From positions 1 to 64,000 of the forward strand of contig JAJCXX010000028.1 of the NCBI GenBank assembly GCA_029263195.1: a DNA stretch of 64,000 bases, read 5' to 3'. The position numbers and the translations under genes were made by a program. Shown in pieces: positions 9,265 to 18,962 of the stretch; position 1 is the first letter of the stretch, and each line of letters starts with the position of its first letter. The notes under the pieces were generated by a model. The model was not told the origin of the DNA, did not search any database, and saw nothing but the letters and a program-made list of their open reading frames with translations. This DNA comes from Acidimicrobiales bacterium (GTDB taxonomy: Bacteria; Actinomycetota; Acidimicrobiia; Acidimicrobiales; Aldehydirespiratoraceae).

Positions 9265-11013
9265 CTAGGTTGTGACTGGCACCAGACGGCAGGTGCAGGC
9301 CACATGAAGTGGCGGGTGGGCCTCACCGGTGGGGAACGTTTCTCCAGTCGCCACCGCGCCGGCGAGGGCGTTGTCGGCGCAGTCGGGACCGCACGGTCCG
9401 CTTGGTTCGACGGCCCAGCGAACAGTCGCGGCATCACTTGCCAGCACCACCATGGCGTCGACCGCCACGAGCGCGGCCGATACTGCCTCGGGAACTCGTC
9501 GAGATCTCGACTCCCGATACATGGCTCGCACCGCGTCGATCATCTCGATCTCGTCGGGATCGTCGCCGTTGTCGCTGCGGCGGACGAACTCCGACAGACG
9601 GTGCCGCATCGGCTCGATTGCAATCAAATGCAGGTGCGACAGGGCATCGGTCAAGTCGATGGTGTCGCCGTCGGTCAGACCGGCCACGTACTCCTCGAGA
9701 ACAGGAATGGCGACCTCGTCGTACGCATCGACCTGACCAACCGGGTCGTCGACCAACTCTCTCAAGGTGTCGACTCCGTTGCGTCGAACACCGTCGAGAA
9801 GAACTCCTTGCTCGTCGACGACAACCTTCTTCAGAGCGCGCGCCGCCAAGACCTGAGCCCGCTCACGCACCTCACCTCCGGCCCACAGTTCTGATTCGGG
9901 CTCTGGATTCGTATCCGGCCCGGGCTCCGGTTCGACTCCGAGTTCAGCCTCCGGCTCCGCTTCGGGCTCCGGCTCCGGCTCCGGCTCCGAGGTTCGCAAC
10001 TTGGCGAAAAGGTCATCGACGCCGTCGCCTGAATCCTCGGCTCGGACCTCTTCCCCTGCCTCCTCTTCGACCTCCGACTCCGATTCCGGCTCTGGTTCGG
10101 GCTCCGGCTCCGGCTCCGGCTCCGGTTCCGGTTCCGGAGCTTCGCTCTCGGCCTCCACATCGAACAACTCCGGGCGTTGGCCGACCGAAGGTTCGAACTC
10201 CTCGAGGTCGGCGATCAGATCCACGTCGTCGGCCTCGAACGTGGGCTCCTCACCCGGATCGACGATGTCGGCTACGAGAGGATGGCCGACCATGCGCGCC
10301 GCCTCGATCTCGGCCTCGAGGTGCGCGGCAGTCGGGGCCACCTCCTCCTCGATTCGCAGGCCGGCCCGATCGGCCGCGGCTCGGGCCTCGGGTACCGATT
10401 CAACTAGATCAGTCATCGCGGTATCAAGGCTCTGCTGTACTACAGCCAGAGACTCGAGCAATCGATCTCGGGCCGCTCGGAGCTGCTCGACCTGGGCGCG
10501 ACCCGCCTGCCGCTTGCGCGACAGGTCGTTGAGCATCCTCTCCCTGACCGTCTGAGCCTCGGCCACCATGTGCTGCCCGTGGGCCCGGCCGTCCTCGATG
10601 AGAGCATCAGAGGTCTTACGAGCCGTCTCGATCATTTCGTCGGACTGGGCGCGCGAGGACTCCCGTGTGGCATCGGCGGCTGAGATCGCCTCCTCACGTA
10701 CCGCCATTGCTTCACGTTCGGCTCTTTCGGATCTCTCGACGGCGGCCAGATGCGCCGCCTCGAGAACCTTGGTGGCCTCGGCCCCGAGTGCCTCGGCAAT
10801 TCGATGAGGCTCCAGCTGACCCACAGAGACCGTGTCGAACTCTGCCGCGGCCGCAACAAGCCGATCGCTCTCTACCTGAAGCTCACGAATCGCGGTCGCG
10901 GCGGCCCTGAGGCGAATTCGAACCGCAGCCGGCTCGAAGCCCCGCCTCACCAAAGGAAAAGTGGAGGACTCGAGACTCGCTGGATCCGCTGGATCATTGA
11001 CCGATGTCGACAC
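9265..11013 (-). CDS. DivIVA-like coiled-coil protein with Glu-Pro repeats and a phage-minor-head-like C terminus
   Basis: A 582-residue protein. Residues 10-45 ([17 protein letters not shown]) resemble the DivIVA N terminus. A long Ala/Glu/Arg coiled coil runs to about residue 230, then acidic Glu-Pro repeats (about 290-400), then a helical domain. It ends with CGPDCADN, G-x-F-P-x-G, PPLHVACTC, a layout like the Cys/His end of SPP1 gp7/Mu F minor head proteins. Start GTG 11013 is supported by TACGAT (11020-11025) 6 nt upstream; ATG 11034 has neither signal. It lies 55 nt behind the PDZ-Lon protease gene on the same strand. The role is probably cell envelope or polarity related, by inference. 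Confidence 0.75.
10069..10139 (-). repeat. Glu-Pro coding repeat
   Basis: GGCTCC/GGTTCC hexamers on the plus strand encode alternating Pro-Glu or Ser-Glu dipeptides. A shorter block of the same kind is at about 9961-9989. The repeat is low complexity within the DivIVA-like gene. Confidence 0.85.
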
Positions 11014-11068
11014 CCGACAATCGTAGGAGCGCATCCGGGCGGGTTCTGGTATCCCCTCGTGTCGGGAC

Positions 11069-12241
11069 TCAGTTGGTGGAGTCGACCGCCACACCTGGCA
11101 ACACCAGATCCGAGGTTGCACCACCCAGCTCACTCAGCGCATTCAGGGCGTCCTCGAGAGTCTCGACCCCCACGACCGGCATGTCGCCCGCCCCCTTCTC
11201 GGCGTCGGCGACCTCGCCGACCGGCACGATGAACAACTTTGCGCCCGCCCTTCGGGCCCCTACCGCCTTTTGCTCGGCGCCACCGACATCACCGACGGTC
11301 TCATCGAGCAGGATCGTGCCGGTGACCGCGACCTTCTGCCCTCCGGTGAGTTCGCCGGGAGTGAGCAAATCGATGATCGACAAGGTGAAGGCCAGCCCGG
11401 CCGACGGCCCACCGATCTCGCCGGAGTCGATCGAGACGTCGAACGGGAGGTCGTTCTGCTCGGCGCGCGTTGCCACGTTGCCGACCCCGATGAAAGCCCG
11501 TTCGGGGTCGTCGGGGTGAGGACCGAGAACCAACGTCTCTTCGCGTATCTCCAAGGTGTCGTTGTCTTCCAGAATCAGGACGATTTCATCACCCGGTCCA
11601 CGGGCGTCGAGTGCGTCGCGCAGGGTCGTGAAACTGGTGATCGCCGCATCGTCGATCTGGATGATTATGTCGCCCACCTTGAGTATCCCCGCGGCCGGCC
11701 CGTCGCTGAGCACCTCCTCGAAACCGATACCGGTCTCATCGATCACGTCGACTCCGAAGTACTGGAGCGCGACCAGAACCGCCGTCTCCTTCGAGACCTG
11801 CATCATCTGGAGATTCCTCTGACGGTTCTCCGACGCCGAACGGTCGCCGAACACCACATCGTGGGGAAGAAGCGTCTGATGAGAGTCACTTTCGGCGTCA
11901 AGCCACTCGAGGATCGAAACCTGATCGTCTATCGCCACGGTCGTGAACAGAATCTGGCCTTCCGGCTCAAAGATTCGTGATTGATCGATGGCAACCCGGT
12001 CGGACACACCTCGGGCCTGACCGGGCTTGAGAGCAACCGGAGACCTGTCGATGATGGCCGTTCCCGGAACGACACTGCCGAGCGCTCCGACCGGAATCAC
12101 GCTCGCCAGCCCGAGAATCAGAGCGATACCAGCGGCCGACGCGCCGAGGACCCTCACCCAGCGACGATGATGCCATCGGGGCGGCGCAACCGGCGCCGTC
12201 GACGGCGGTAGCATCGGCGTCGACGTGTCCAACTTGCTCAT
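11069..12241 (-). CDS. Membrane-anchored PDZ domain / Lon-type (S16) serine protease, YlbL-like
   Basis: A 390-residue protein with one membrane helix at residues 25-47, a PDZ domain around 180-255 ('[19 protein letters not shown]') and a C-terminal Lon proteolytic domain. The Ser-Lys dyad is intact: Ser280 in GGPSAGL and Lys325 in [12 protein letters not shown]. The architecture matches actinobacterial YlbL/SdrC-type proteases, with the catalytic domain outside the membrane. Start ATG 12241 has an AGGACG site upstream. The coiled-coil DivIVA-like gene follows directly, and may be a partner or substrate by inference. Confidence 0.88.
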
Positions 12242-13727: not shown

Positions 13728-14735
13728 TCAGCGAGCCCACTCACCCATGAACATCGACTTCCCTGCTTCGAACGACTCGATGCACATGCCTGCGCCGACC
13801 ACCACAGTTTCGAGCGGAGCGTCGACCAGGTGAACCGGCACTGACGTCTCTGCCCGCAAGCGTTCGACCATGCCCCGCAGCATTCCTCCGCCACCGACGA
13901 GATTGATGCCCTCGATGATGAGATCCTGAGCCAATTCCGGAGGGGCCTGAGCGAGACAACTCACGACCGAATCAACCATCGCGCCGACCGGCTCCGCTAT
14001 CGCCGTTCGAATCTCCTCAGGGGTCAAGACCACTGTCTTGGGCAGGCCGCTCATCAGTTCCCGGCCACGAACCTCGGCACACATCTCGCCCTCGGTTGGC
14101 GCGGCCGAGCCGATCACCAGCTTGATCTCCTCAGCCGTTCGCTCACCGACCGCTATACCCCACTCCCGGCGAATATGTGCCTGGATGGCGTTGTCGATGT
14201 CGAACGAACCGACTCTCACCGCTTCGATCGCCACCACGCCGCCGAGCGAGAGGATCGCCGACTCGGTGGTGCCTCCACCAATGTCGACAACCATGTTGCC
14301 GATCGGCTCGCTGATCGGCAGGTCGGCGCCGATGGCGGCAGCCACCGGCTGTTCGATGAGTCGGGCATCGGCCGCTCCGGCTCTTCGAGCCGCCTCGGTG
14401 ACAGCGCGACGCTCCACCGCGGTGATCGCCGACGGCACGCAGATCACGACCCGCGGACGGTTGAACTTGCTGACCCCGACTCGTTGAAGGAGGAGCCTGA
14501 TCATCCGCTGAGTCACGTCGAAATCGGTGATCGCGCCTTTCCGCAAGGGCCGCACCGCAACGATGTAACTCGGCGTGCGTCCAATCATTTCCCAGGCCTC
14601 GCTGCCCATGGCGATGACATCGTTGTTGCGCCGATTCAGCGCGATAACCGACGGTTCGTTGAGGACGATGCCCTCACCCCTCGCGTAGACGAGAGTGTTG
14701 GCGGTGCCAAGGTCGATCGCCAGGTCGCGTGCCAG
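13728..14735 (-). CDS. mreB: Rod shape-determining protein MreB, apparent CTG start
   Basis: A 335-residue actin-like ATPase that forms membrane filaments guiding lateral wall synthesis. Phosphate-1 motif DLGTANT is at residues 8-14, phosphate-2 VDIGGGTTES and the adenosine loop GGGGMLRG are present, and length is normal for MreB. The reading frame is open only from a TGA shared with the upstream gene. No ATG, GTG or TTG precedes DLGTANT; the first ATG (14609) would remove 42 residues and the ATP site. CTG 14735 sits 8 nt after AGGAGA and gives LARDLAIDLGTAN, the expected N terminus. The gene is co-directional with moaE and a small membrane protein. Confidence 0.9.
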   Translation of the reverse strand: MARDLAIDLGTANTLVYARGEGIVLNEPSVIALNRRNNDVIAMGSEAWEMIGRTPSYIVAVRPLRKGAITDFDVTQRMIRLLLQRVGVSKFNRPRVVICVPSAITAVERRAVTEAARRAGAADARLIEQPVAAAIGADLPISEPIGNMVVDIGGGTTESAILSLGGVVAIEAVRVGSFDIDNAIQAHIRREWGIAVGERTAEEIKLVIGSAAPTEGEMCAEVRGRELMSGLPKTVVLTPEEIRTAIAEPVGAMVDSVVSCLAQAPPELAQDLIIEGINLVGGGGMLRGMVERLRAETSVPVHLVDAPLETVVVGAGMCIESFEAGKSMFMGEWAR

Positions 14736-14738
14736 GGC

Positions 14739-14954
14739 TCAGGTCTCCTCGTCGATGGGGTCGAGGGTGACAATACCGCTCGGCTGATCGCGACTCACCC
14801 GACTCGGGTTGAACGCCAAGGCCTGCATCTGCTGATCGAACGGTGTTTCGCGTCGGCGACGACGCTGCGTTATGGCATGAAACACCCACAACACGATCAG
14901 GCCGACGACCGCAGCCACCAGCGCACCGGCCAGAAACAGCGCAGCACTACTCAT
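14739..14954 (-). CDS. Small single-helix membrane protein next to mreB
   Basis: A 71-residue protein with one N-terminal membrane helix (residues 5-28), an RRRRR stop-transfer segment and a soluble tail of about 40 residues. ATG 14954 overlaps the end of moaE by 8 nt, and its TGA lies 3 nt before the mreB CTG, so translation is probably coupled to mreB. No family recognised; an MreB-associated role is inference from position. Confidence 0.65.
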   Translation of the reverse strand: MSSAALFLAGALVAAVVGLIVLWVFHAITQRRRRRETPFDQQMQALAFNPSRVSRDQPSGIVTLDPIDEET

Positions 14955-15435
14955 GCGCGACCTCCGATATGTGCTGAGTCTCCAGACCCCACGACTCCCC
15001 GTCAGCCCAGGTTTCCCGTTTCCAGATCGGAACCGTCGCTTTCAGCGTGTCGATGGCGTATCGGGCTGCTTCGAATGCCGCCGACCGGTGTGGTGACGAG
15101 ACCACGACCACAACCGAGGATTCGCCCACCGGCACCACTCCCACCCGATGCAGAATGGCGATTCGGCCGATGTCGGGCCATGACGCCCGCATCTTGGAAG
15201 CAATCTCGGCCAGCCGGGGCACGACATGCTCCTCGTATGCCTCGTATTCGAGACGCTCCACCGCATCGCGTCCGGGAGCGTGGTCGCGCGCTGTTCCGCT
15301 GAACATCACCAGCGCGCCACAGGAAGGCAGAACCGCCCAGTCGGAAGCGGCACCAACCGGAAGACGCTCACTGCTGAGTCCGAGCCAGGTCGGGTCTTCG
15401 GGTGGTGACAGCACAGCGTCATCGTAGGTCGCCAC
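14947..15435 (-). CDS. moaE: Molybdopterin synthase catalytic subunit MoaE-like protein
   Basis: A 162-residue protein from GTG 15435. MoaE landmarks are visible: CGALVMFSGTARDHAPGR, LEYEAYEEH, 'ILHRVGVVPVGESSVVVVVSSPHR' and KATVPIWKRE with the active-site lysines. With MoaD it inserts two sulfurs into cyclic pyranopterin to form molybdopterin. No other molybdenum cofactor gene is in this window. An upstream ATG at 15594 would overlap the divergent gene and adds residues unlike MoaE, so the GTG is preferred. Confidence 0.85.
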   Translation of the reverse strand: MATYDDAVLSPPEDPTWLGLSSERLPVGAASDWAVLPSCGALVMFSGTARDHAPGRDAVERLEYEAYEEHVVPRLAEIASKMRASWPDIGRIAILHRVGVVPVGESSVVVVVSSPHRSAAFEAARYAIDTLKATVPIWKRETWADGESWGLETQHISEVAHE

Positions 15436-15516
15436 ACGGTTGCGTCCCACACCAACCGTGTCAACCACGCAGGGGCGCGCGCGCCAGCACGACTCCCGAA
15501 TGTAGCCTCGCGTCTC

Positions 15517-16656
15517 GTGGGACCGGAAGAAACCGACGACCAGGACGATGTTCGAGGTTGGCTCTTGCCCGCCGAGGACCGCCTCTGGCGTCACCCGTCC
15601 GAGCTAGGTCAGGGTGCCGGCAAACGGCGCTCGGCGAACCCGACCACCATCGTATTCTCGGCCATGGGCGGGGCCATGCTGGTCGGAGCCATGTGGTTCA
15701 CCTTCGGCGGCATCACCAAGGTCAGAATGGCCACGGAACGCGTCGCGCTCATCCCGATCGAGTCGGTTGCGCCGCGAATCACCCCGGCCGACGAATGGAC
15801 CCGCACCGTCTCCGACGTGGCCCGGCCATCAACGGCCGCCGTCCGACAACTCGACGGATCGAGCATTGTCGCCGGAGCTGTCGCCATCCGCGACGACGGC
15901 TACCTCGTGACTAGCGGCCGGGCCCTCGCCGGCGCCGACACGGTCATGGTCACGACCAGTTCGGGCACCGCACAGGAAGCATCGGTCATCGGCACCGATA
16001 TGGTGACCGACCTCGCGGTCCTTCGAGTCAGTGACGAGATGACCGCGGCGGTGATATCTGAGGCCGGCGCCCCGCTTTCCGGCGAAACCCTTGCTGTGGT
16101 CAACGCCGCCGGAGACGCCCAGAACCGACTCGTCATCTCTGGTGCGGCCACCAGTGCCGCCAGCGACGGATCCCTCTACGTGGGAGTGATCGCTCTCGAC
16201 GGATCGGTCGGCGAAGTTCTCCCCGGCAGCCCCGCCGTCGACACCACGGGCGCGGTCGTCGGGATCATCGCCTCCACCGCCTACGACGCTCCGGCCGCAG
16301 TGGTGCCGATCGACCTCATCCGCGCAATCACTCACGACCTGATCGCCAACGGCTGGGTCGATCACCCAAGGGCCGGCATAACTGCCCGCGACGTCCTGCC
16401 CACCGACGACAACACCCAACACTCCGGGGCGCTCGTTACATCGGTGGAAGCCAACGGACCGGCTGCCGACAGTGGAATGCTGATCGGCGACGTGGTGGTG
16501 AAGGTCGGCGAATCCGGTGTCACGTCGATGGCCGCCATGGTCGCAGAATTGCTGGTTCACCAACCCGGCGAGACCCTCGATTTTCTGGTGATGCGCGACG
16601 GCCACGAAGTTGTCTGTCAAGTCGTTCTCGATGCGTCGATCGAGGACGAATCCTGA
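15517..16656 (+). CDS. HtrA-like membrane protein with degenerate trypsin domain and PDZ domain
   Basis: A 379-residue protein. The cytoplasmic N terminus GWLLPAEDRLWRHPSEL is shared with actinobacterial trypsin-like proteins. It is followed by one membrane helix (about 48-66), a trypsin-like domain and a C-terminal PDZ domain (about 285-375). The catalytic triad is broken: the expected histidine position in 'YLVTSGRAL' is Arg135, Asp165 in TDLAVL is kept, and GNSGG is replaced by PGSPAV (Ser238). It is likely a non-proteolytic sensor or scaffold. GTG 15517 has TAGCCT (15503-15508) 8 nt upstream, pointing to a leaderless start. Confidence 0.8.
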   Translation: MGPEETDDQDDVRGWLLPAEDRLWRHPSELGQGAGKRRSANPTTIVFSAMGGAMLVGAMWFTFGGITKVRMATERVALIPIESVAPRITPADEWTRTVSDVARPSTAAVRQLDGSSIVAGAVAIRDDGYLVTSGRALAGADTVMVTTSSGTAQEASVIGTDMVTDLAVLRVSDEMTAAVISEAGAPLSGETLAVVNAAGDAQNRLVISGAATSAASDGSLYVGVIALDGSVGEVLPGSPAVDTTGAVVGIIASTAYDAPAAVVPIDLIRAITHDLIANGWVDHPRAGITARDVLPTDDNTQHSGALVTSVEANGPAADSGMLIGDVVVKVGESGVTSMAAMVAELLVHQPGETLDFLVMRDGHEVVCQVVLDASIEDES

Positions 16657-17703
16657 TCAGCGATTCCGTCGTCTGATCCTCACGACCGCGATCGCCACTC
16701 CCACGAGCACCGCAGCCAGCGCACCGGCAGCGAGGCCGAGTGCCAACTCTTGCCGGCGCCGAGCCGGCAGACGATCGAGCCGACCTGGTTCGTGGGAAGC
16801 GACCCAGGCTTCCTCGTTGGAGAAGTTCGGATTCCAGCCCAGAGCCCGCAGTCGGTCGTTGGACACGACCCAGGAGTTGGCGGTATAGGGAACAACCCCC
16901 GGAGGCGTCGGTGACCAGCCCATGCGCCATCTGAGAGCCGCCAGCCCGCGAGCGGCCCATTGCGGCACCCTCACACGTGCGGACAAGCCTTCGAGTTCGT
17001 GGAGGGCGTCGGGCGGTATCCAGCCGTCGGGTGCGACATTGGCGACACCATCAAACTTGGCCATCACGACAATTTCGATCGCCGATACCAGATCGTCGAC
17101 ATGCAGATACTGCACCGGCGGGTCGCCTTCGGCCGCCACTCCCCGCCTGGCCGCATGCAGAACCCTCGCCAGTTGACCGAGATCGTCGTTGGACACCACC
17201 GAGGTCGGACGCAGAACCGCCACTCCGGCCCCACGGTTGGTTTGTCTCCACTCCACCGCCAACTTCTCGATCTCGGCCCTCAGGTTGGCCCAGCCGAAAT
17301 CCGGGTTGGGCCTGATCGACGCGTTTTCGGTAATGGGAACGGGATTCGCATGCCACGCCCCGTAGACCATCGCGGTCGACAACACGACTACATGTTCGAC
17401 CCCGACCGACGACGCAGCGTCGAGAACCCGGCGGAAGATCGCCACCTCGAGTTCGCTGGCCAGCGGATCAGGATTGTCGGGGCTCGTCGAAGACGCCAGA
17501 TGAACAACAGTCGTCGCGCCGGCCAGCACGGTGGTGAGATCCTCGGTTGACAAATCCACTCTCTTGAAGCCCACACCGAAGACATCCGAGGGCTGGTTGA
17601 TCCGATCGACCGCCAGCACATCGAGATCGGCATCAATGGCAGCCAACCGCGCCACCACCCGTCGACCTATCGCTCCCGCTGCACCTGTCACAACGATTCT
17701 CAC
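16657..17703 (-). CDS. NAD-dependent epimerase/dehydratase with C-terminal membrane anchor
   Basis: A 348-residue extended SDR. It opens with RIVVTGAAGAIGRRV (Rossmann GxxGxxG), contains VVHLASST, and has the catalytic-type Tyr in VYGAWHANP. A final hydrophobic helix near 320-343 ends in RIRRRNR, a probable membrane anchor. The substrate is unknown; nucleotide sugars or sterol-like substrates are typical. GTG 17703 has GGAG 5 nt upstream. Its stop directly abuts the stop of the HtrA-like gene. Confidence 0.82.
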   Translation of the reverse strand: MRIVVTGAAGAIGRRVVARLAAIDADLDVLAVDRINQPSDVFGVGFKRVDLSTEDLTTVLAGATTVVHLASSTSPDNPDPLASELEVAIFRRVLDAASSVGVEHVVVLSTAMVYGAWHANPVPITENASIRPNPDFGWANLRAEIEKLAVEWRQTNRGAGVAVLRPTSVVSNDDLGQLARVLHAARRGVAAEGDPPVQYLHVDDLVSAIEIVVMAKFDGVANVAPDGWIPPDALHELEGLSARVRVPQWAARGLAALRWRMGWSPTPPGVVPYTANSWVVSNDRLRALGWNPNFSNEEAWVASHEPGRLDRLPARRRQELALGLAAGALAAVLVGVAIAVVRIRRRNR

Positions 17704-17774
17704 GGTTGCTCCAACCTCGACTCACCGGCCCGCACTGCAGAGGAACGGCCCCTGCTCTCATCTACCATGCCGTC

Positions 17775-18962
17775 ATGAGCGACGCCGGTCCACCCGGAGA
17801 AGACCCATTCGACGGAATTCCTTTCATCGGCGAGTTGATGCGCATGATTCAGGGGCAGGGCGCTCCGGGCCAGGACGCTTCCCGACAGATCGCCCACAGC
17901 ATCGCCAACGAGGGCCGCACCGAGGCCAATGTCGACCCGATCGACCGAATGGCGGTCGAGGAGCTCATTCGGGTGGCCCAGCTTCAGGTCAGTGCCAAGA
18001 CGGGTCTTGATCTCGAAAAGAGAGGCCCGATGCGTGTGGAGGTCGTCAATCGTTCGCAGTGGGCCGACCGCACCATCGATGACTACCGCCCGATGTTCGA
18101 GACTCTTTCGAAGTCGATGTCGGCCGGGCTGGAACTACCCGACGATCTCCCGGCCGACGATCCCATGGCGGCGATGATCCAGGGAATGAGCCAGATGATG
18201 GCGCCGATGATGTCGAGCATGACCACCGGAACAATGGTCGGAAACCTCGCCCATCGTTCGATGGGCGGCTACGACCTCCCGGTCCCCAGGCCCGAAGGCA
18301 AGCCACTCCTCATTGCTCTTCCCAACGTCGATCTATTCGGCTCCGAGTGGTCACTCGAGCGCGACGATCTGCGCCTCTGGGTGTGCCTCCACGAGACGAC
18401 GTCCCATGCCGTGCTGGGGATTCCCCACGTCAAGGCCCGCTTGGAAGATCTTCTGCAGCGACATGCCGCCGCCTTCACCTCTGATCCCTCGACTATCGAG
18501 GACAAGCTGGGTGGTTTCGATCTGTCAGCCGGGCCGGAGTCGTTGGCCGACATCCAGTCTCTTCTCGGCGATCCGGACACTGTGCTGGGTGCGGTTCGTT
18601 CACCCGAACAAGAAGCCATCCAGCCTGAACTCACCGCCATAGTTGCCGCGGTCACCGGCTACGTCGACCATGTGATGGACAGCATCGGCCAGACCCTGAT
18701 CGGTTCCTACTCGATGCTCACCGAAGCCCTCCGAAGGCGCCGAGCCACGGCCGACAAGTCCGATCGTTTCGTCGAACGGATCCTCGGGCTCGAACTCGAC
18801 CATTCTCAGTACGACCGAGGCACGGCCTTCGCGGCCGGGGTAGTGGAGCGGGCCGGAGACGACGGGCTGGCAAGACTGTTCGCCGAACCCGAGAACCTGC
18901 CCACTCCCACCGAAGTCGATGCCCCGGGACTCTGGTTGGCGAGGATCGATCTCCCCGACTGA
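17775..18962 (+). CDS. DUF2342 zincin-like protein (putative hydrolase)
   Basis: A 395-residue member of the actinobacterial DUF2342 / zinc-dependent metalloprotease-like group. Typical parts include DPFDGIPFIGEL at the start, MMSSMTTGTMVGNLAHRSMGGYDLP, LFGSEWSLERDDLRLWVCLHE and 'FSGSANSL'-like ends. At the expected HExxH the sequence is HETTSH, so the second histidine is displaced by one residue. Activity is unproven for the family. ATG 17775 follows TACCAT (17763-17768) by 6 nt without a ribosome site, a leaderless pattern. Confidence 0.82.
   Translation: MSDAGPPGEDPFDGIPFIGELMRMIQGQGAPGQDASRQIAHSIANEGRTEANVDPIDRMAVEELIRVAQLQVSAKTGLDLEKRGPMRVEVVNRSQWADRTIDDYRPMFETLSKSMSAGLELPDDLPADDPMAAMIQGMSQMMAPMMSSMTTGTMVGNLAHRSMGGYDLPVPRPEGKPLLIALPNVDLFGSEWSLERDDLRLWVCLHETTSHAVLGIPHVKARLEDLLQRHAAAFTSDPSTIEDKLGGFDLSAGPESLADIQSLLGDPDTVLGAVRSPEQEAIQPELTAIVAAVTGYVDHVMDSIGQTLIGSYSMLTEALRRRRATADKSDRFVERILGLELDHSQYDRGTAFAAGVVERAGDDGLARLFAEPENLPTPTEVDAPGLWLARIDLPD

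Follow-up and report, generated by a model that had tools for sequence, protein, structure and literature searches.

HtrA proteins with and without an active site

Proteases of the HtrA type (S1C) combine a chymotrypsin-like fold, with its His-Asp-Ser triad and oxyanion-hole Gly193, with a PDZ domain that follows it. DegS, which like AlgW is a membrane-anchored HtrA stress sensor, has an N-terminal membrane anchor, is activated when its PDZ binds C-terminal peptides, and cuts an anti-sigma factor, and the actinobacterial HtrA-PDZ proteins of mycobacteria, HtrA (Rv1223) and PepD (Rv0983), have an active site. The only bacterial case found in the available excerpts of the literature on HtrA pseudoproteases is MamO of magnetotactic bacteria; a literature search for catalytically inactive HtrA pseudoenzymes matched PRSS23, and inactive HtrAs were not found in the excerpts on acidophile proteostasis (Acidimicrobiia together with HtrA). 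According to the excerpted text, MamO, itself a pseudoprotease, activates its partner protease, and a residue other than glycine at position 193 is argued to prevent the loop there from adopting its active form (PMC4794232). MamO carries a bulky Trp at position 192 in loop L1, and a di-histidine metal site and the magnetosome island are further marks of the type (PMC4794232, same excerpts).

We analysed an HtrA-like gene within a 64,000-nucleotide stretch of DNA from an Acidimicrobiales bacterium (the window). By analogy, MamO would be the closest known counterpart of its product. Like MamO and the inactive copies of MamE, as far as the excerpts describe them, the window protein is an HtrA/trypsin-2 pseudoprotease with a degenerate triad and a non-glycine residue at 193, and in both settings active and inactive proteases are found together. 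It differs in having Glu233 rather than Trp at position 192, in a W-x-H-P motif of its family that goes unmentioned in the excerpted text of PMC4794232, and, by the same excerpts, in that intact and inactivated versions here share one orthologous locus across an order. The protease domain with one PDZ, the predicted N-terminal membrane anchor and the structural matches recall DegS and AlgW. Unlike DegS, however, the window protein is without the His, the Ser and the oxyanion glycine, and DegS-type cleavage is unlikely because the triad is absent. It also resembles the mycobacterial HtrA and PepD, with structural Z scores of 29.1 and 29.7, respectively.

Product and active site of the gene

The 379-residue protein runs from an acidic N-terminal tail through a predicted membrane helix to a trypsin/HtrA fold and a single PDZ domain, with the following features in window coordinates:

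15517..16656, plus strand: gene of an HtrA-like pseudoprotease; 379 aa from a GTG start, open frame with 0 internal stops
15577..15603, plus strand: motif DRLWRHPSE, residues 21-29; probably cytoplasmic, hallmark of the family
15640..15702, plus strand: transmembrane helix, residues 42-62; AlphaFold2 helix with basic residues on its N-terminal side
15829..16341, plus strand: catalytically degenerate trypsin/HtrA-fold domain, about residues 105-275; Pfam, AlphaFold2 and structural matches
15919..15921 (CGG), plus strand: Arg135 in the catalytic His column, within VTSGRAL; translation and alignments
16009..16011 (GAC), plus strand: Asp165, the catalytic Asp, kept within TDLAVL; translation and alignments
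16216..16218, plus strand: Val234 in the column of the oxyanion-hole Gly193 (chymotrypsin 193); family alignment
16222..16224 (CCC), plus strand: Pro236 in the catalytic Ser column, within LPGSPAV; translation and alignments
16363..16632, plus strand: PDZ domain, about residues 283-372; Pfam and AlphaFold2

In the Pfam search Trypsin_2 and PDZ_2 each scored above the cut-off, and the N-terminal part matched no listed domain. The AlphaFold2 model is that of an HtrA-PDZ protein (mean pLDDT 84.8), with the chymotrypsin-like fold followed by PDZ as in S1C proteases. Structural alignment of its residues 88-379 with DegP gave a Z of 30.4 and an rmsd of 2.8 over 287 residues, and DegQ and the mycobacterial PepD and HtrA fitted about equally well.

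An earlier reading made from the sequence alone (the sequence-only reading) had described a His replaced by Arg135, GNSGG replaced by PGSPAV, and the Asp in TDLAVL kept. Translation and alignments bear this out: R135 and P236 fall in the His and Ser columns in both the PDB alignments and the family alignments, so that the S1C triad here reads R135, D165 and P236. That reading had missed both the Val234 in place of Gly193 and the W-x-H-P-[S/A/T]-E motif. It had proposed aligning orthologues to see whether the losses are fixed, and both His and Ser are indeed missing from 10/10 copies in the window's taxonomic family (one, G017, is cut at its N-terminus by a contig end); because all ten lack them, the loss of these two residues is not a matter of chance. 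Judged by its sequence, the window protein would be a pseudoprotease with a dead active site, and its earlier description as a membrane-anchored one is supported at the same level. The PDZ domain, called intact in the sequence-only reading, is kept as a domain (Pfam PDZ_2), but the stretch that we take to be the carboxylate-binding loop position of HtrA PDZs reads R-A-G-I in the window protein as against W-L-G-V/I in most of the family.

Inactivation extends well beyond these copies. The comparison took in 122 distinct proteins that bear the motif and still measure at least 300 residues after trimming; most had been fetched by the motif. The full triad is present in 23 of them, and 99 have lost one or more of its three residues, with many different residues standing in at the lost positions. 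Gly193 is retained in 22/23 of the intact members versus 14/99 of the inactivated ones. The same alignment contains 31 HtrAs without the motif, and every one is intact. Among them is L215, which groups with the family and whose contig ends before the motif would be reached. Exact duplicates from two collections were merged for these 122 and for the 125 genes considered below. Left out of the counts were 9 short ORFs (including the frame-broken HtrA part of L179), two pattern matches without a family ORF (L067 and L110), one gene cut by a contig end (L124), and L087 and L117, which were missed at the E cut-off of 1e-10 and are described separately. The named loci used are the best 80 of 190, and the names of class and order follow record titles, a few of which name Bifidobacterium or Acidobacteria.

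Chromosomal slot and N-terminal motif

The gene lies in a slot between moaE and the SDR and zincin genes, with these neighbours:

13728..14735, minus strand: mreB, a conserved neighbour that probably starts at CTG
14947..15594, minus strand: moaE, divergent conserved neighbour; ORF as listed
16657..17703, minus strand: NAD-dependent epimerase/SDR, conserved neighbour
17706..18962, plus strand: zincin-like protein (TIGR03624/DUF2342), conserved neighbour

Since the listed moaE ORF overlaps the pseudoprotease gene, the true start of moaE is probably inside that ORF. The best matches in other families have the N-terminal motif and the neighbourhood in common with the window gene, in the order (Lon-PDZ) HEAT, mreB, moaE, gene, SDR, zincin, MFS. 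Among 125 distinct genes in fetched regions, 118 have mreB or moaE plus SDR or zincin within the same region. Intact and inactivated versions occupy this one orthologous slot, the inactivated ones in more lineages, and intact orthologues were found only in other families, at about 24-32% identity to the window protein. These genes form an orthologous family of Acidimicrobiia (the taxon being taken from record titles) at a single chromosomal position.

Some further observations concern the surrounding DNA. The mreB gene beside the pseudoprotease gene probably starts at CTG; the codon immediately before ARD[L/I]AIDLGTANT in 118 distinct mreB copies from the fetched loci is CTG in 60, ATG in 29, GTG in 24, TTG in 4 and ATA in 1. 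Between moaE and mreB, at about 14738-14950 on the minus strand, a small ORF encodes a hydrophobic segment (MSSAALFLAGALVAAVVGLIVLWVF...), and at 9265-11133 (minus strand) there is a long protein with glutamate/proline repeat stretches in which no Pfam domain scored above the cut-off.

The best-kept hallmark of the family is not the PDZ domain but DR-x-W-x-H-P-[S/A/T]-E ahead of the membrane helix, where the window protein also has it. The possibility that this motif is common to many proteins found no support: the pattern LWRHP[S..]E matched once in the window's own genome, in the window gene itself, and of the 209 stretches that matched the pattern across the genome collection, 190 code for relatives of the window protein. 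WRHPSE was not found in the literature searched. Motif codons vary among the matched sequences, which argues that the constraint acts on the protein.

Because most sequences had been fetched by way of the motif, and its conservation among them thus holds by construction, we also made a motif-blind search of 33 genomes of the order without a WRHPSE match, using a profile that begins after the membrane helix and excludes the N-terminus. The resulting set comprised 52 distinct ORFs, which belong to 30 loci and 19 regions and come from a list of about 94 matches (counted by eye); the choice of the 19 regions rested in part on a place or a low score that hinted at family membership, with their N-termini unseen. 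Variant forms of the motif (WVHPSE, WIHPSE, WLHPSE, WMHPSE or WRHPAE) were present in 8/8 inactivated versus 0/44 intact HtrAs, an association of motif with inactivation that gives a Fisher p of 1e-9 when kinship is ignored. Other orders of the class yielded 11 genes with W-[R/V/I/F]-H-P-[S/A/T]-E, picked since their profile match reached the N-terminus, and 10 of the 11 are inactivated.

A DNA search for the WRHPSE pattern in 149 genomes of the phylum gave at least 7 with a match, five of them within this order, including the window's own genome. Outside the order, L303 carries WRHPSE within a short ORF that gave no match to the family profile, and in L304 neither a WRHPSE frame nor a family ORF was found. 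When 119 genomes of the phylum were searched with the profile, most listed matches outside the class started after the motif columns. Unlike the window's family, the ten out-of-class HtrAs that matched from column 30 or earlier, among the matches listed, are without W-x-H-P-x-E, and in each of the ten the residues H, D and S are present. One intact HtrA from outside the class (L323, genome G240), aligned from column 14, has LQRHPADAGAL in a long N-terminal tail near the motif columns; this may be a distant form of the motif or chance, and a looser form may be older than the family.

A median of 29 residues separates the motif from the hydrophobic segment. Lys and Arg are in excess on the motif side of that segment in 89 of the 122 members, equal in 22 and fewer in 11, and because of this excess in most members we infer that the motif lies inside the cell. 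Natural deletions drop the protease or the PDZ domain yet keep motif and helix. L085, in the same slot, has the motif, helix and PDZ but is without the protease domain; L117 and L087, also in this slot, have the motif, helix and a degenerate protease without a PDZ match; and L302, in which PDZ is absent, has little that is recognisable besides motif and helix. These findings suggest that the part of the protein that stays constant and does the work is the N-terminal end, which is probably cytoplasmic.

History of the gene and its possible roles

In trees from which the motif and triad columns had been left out, motif-bearing rows fell on one side of a branch and other HtrAs on the opposite side, with support of only 87-88 (not starred). 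The window row lay inside a starred set of 9-10 rows of its family, and intact members were nested within groups of inactivated members. Under irreversible loss the 81-row tree requires 4 losses of the triad, the single residues H, D and S disappearing 10, 8 and 13 times, respectively; a single triad loss has an AU p of 0.104 and is hence compatible with the data, and repeated loss is likely, short of proven. Three loci (L157, L161 and L145) keep the Ser and have lost the His, which suggests that the active site decayed stepwise. Many inactivated lineages have longer branches.

Within the genus the gene is maintained under purifying selection and is not decaying, because dN/dS against its nearest relative (G002, 91% identity) is 0.14 at a dS of 0.35. 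By part, the same comparison gave 0.14 for the N-terminus, 0.08 for helix and linker, 0.12 for the protease and 0.26 for PDZ, and against more distant congeners values of 0.27 and 0.30 were obtained at dS > 1. Seven neighbour genes ranged from 0.016 (mreB) to 0.15 (HEAT), which places the window gene among the looser ones and above most; a value of 1.6 for the zincin of L125 was left out because it looks like a framing artefact. The sequence-only reading had taken the lack of a frameshift as a sign that the gene is maintained, and the open frame together with the values of 0.14 for the gene and 0.12 for the protease region agrees. It had also held that close relatives with an intact triad, combined with relaxed selection, would count against it; intact orthologues do exist, though those found belong to other families, and selection is not relaxed.

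The gene can nonetheless be done without. Copies were found in 10 of the 25 genomes searched of the window's taxonomic family, with a fragment at a contig end in G018 and a remnant in G022. Sixteen regions come from relatives that have no whole copy. In 10 of them just 66-233 bp separate the moaE match from the SDR match; the remaining six comprise two that stop short of the slot, two without SDR, one with the remnant and one with the contig-end fragment. In L179 the frame of the gene is broken (one contig). The empty slots, the remnant and the broken frame argue that the gene is dispensable. The G022 remnant itself (L315, about 2305-2695) lies decayed between moaE and SDR, with the motif readable and then a stop, and with a PDZ-like piece in a different frame.

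We consider it about evenly balanced whether the window protein is a membrane-anchored HtrA pseudoprotease that serves as a receptor or adaptor and not as an enzyme. The outside part, a dead protease fold with PDZ, would bind peptides that are exposed, or proteins of the envelope, and leave them uncut, and inside the cell DR-x-W-x-H-P-[S/A/T]-E, ahead of the helix, would dock a putative cytoplasmic partner; the topology, the binding of ligands outside and the docking inside are all things that we infer. Favouring this reading are the loss of triad and oxyanion glycine, purifying selection, the order-wide slot, the motif tests and the deletions that keep the motif. Against it stand the dispensability of the gene, the PDZ dN/dS of 0.26, a whole-gene dN/dS above that of most neighbours, motif conservation that in most sequences holds by construction, and the looser form in L323. 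The sequence-only reading had proposed a sensor or adaptor acting through its PDZ; the adaptor idea stands, but the PDZ is not the best-kept part, being absent in L117 and L087, and the emphasis shifts to the N-terminal motif. MreB as partner of the motif was unsupported by co-occurrence, mreB being present in all 41 genomes searched whether the gene was present or absent.

It is rather unlikely, though worth weighing, that the dead protein is instead a regulatory pseudo-subunit, forming a pair with an active HtrA in its own cell and switching that HtrA, as in the pairing of active and inactive proteases reported for MamO and MamE in the excerpts of PMC4794232. The window's own genome does hold an intact HtrA (C23), in other genomes 10 of 66 fetched regions contain an HtrA without the motif, and at least 22 genomes have a second HtrA-like match on the opposite strand of the same contig, no more than about 25 kb away (counted by eye from the listed matches). 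However, the intact HtrA of the own genome is on a different contig from the pseudoprotease gene, L143 has an intact HtrA next to a family member that is itself intact, and such pairing leaves unexplained both the N-terminal motif, which is the best-kept part, and the protease-less L085. The suggestion that the motif serves as a signal to target or insert this single membrane protein, whose outside part would be a chaperone or holdase, we regard as improbable. HtrA folds can have chaperone activity, and the motif's position a median of 29 residues before the hydrophobic segment would suit such a signal, but one match in the own genome and 190/209 stretches that are relatives are unlike a general sorting signal. 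It is also quite improbable that the gene, its activity gone, is slowly decaying while a stable neighbourhood carries it along: the empty slot in 10/16 regions, the L315 remnant, the broken frame in L179, the domain losses and the longer branches of many inactivated lineages fit it, whereas a dN/dS of 0.14 over 379 codons with 0 stops, persistence across families and orders, and retention of motif and helix do not.

Returning to the receptor or adaptor, we propose tentatively, and at somewhat less than even confidence, that in Acidimicrobiia an ancestral membrane HtrA became a transmembrane receptor in which the cytoplasmic docking peptide D-R-x-W-x-H-P-[S/A/T]-E would be the essential element, binding a dedicated putative partner, and the protease fold would be an optional sensor head, repeatedly inactivated and sometimes deleted. 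HtrA-type pseudoproteases have been described from few systems, and here a single orthologous locus exists in intact, partly inactivated and dead versions, and in others from which the protease or the PDZ is deleted, with one short motif constant. A non-cutting role of HtrA thereby becomes directly testable, and the motif is a concrete bait sequence for a partner search.
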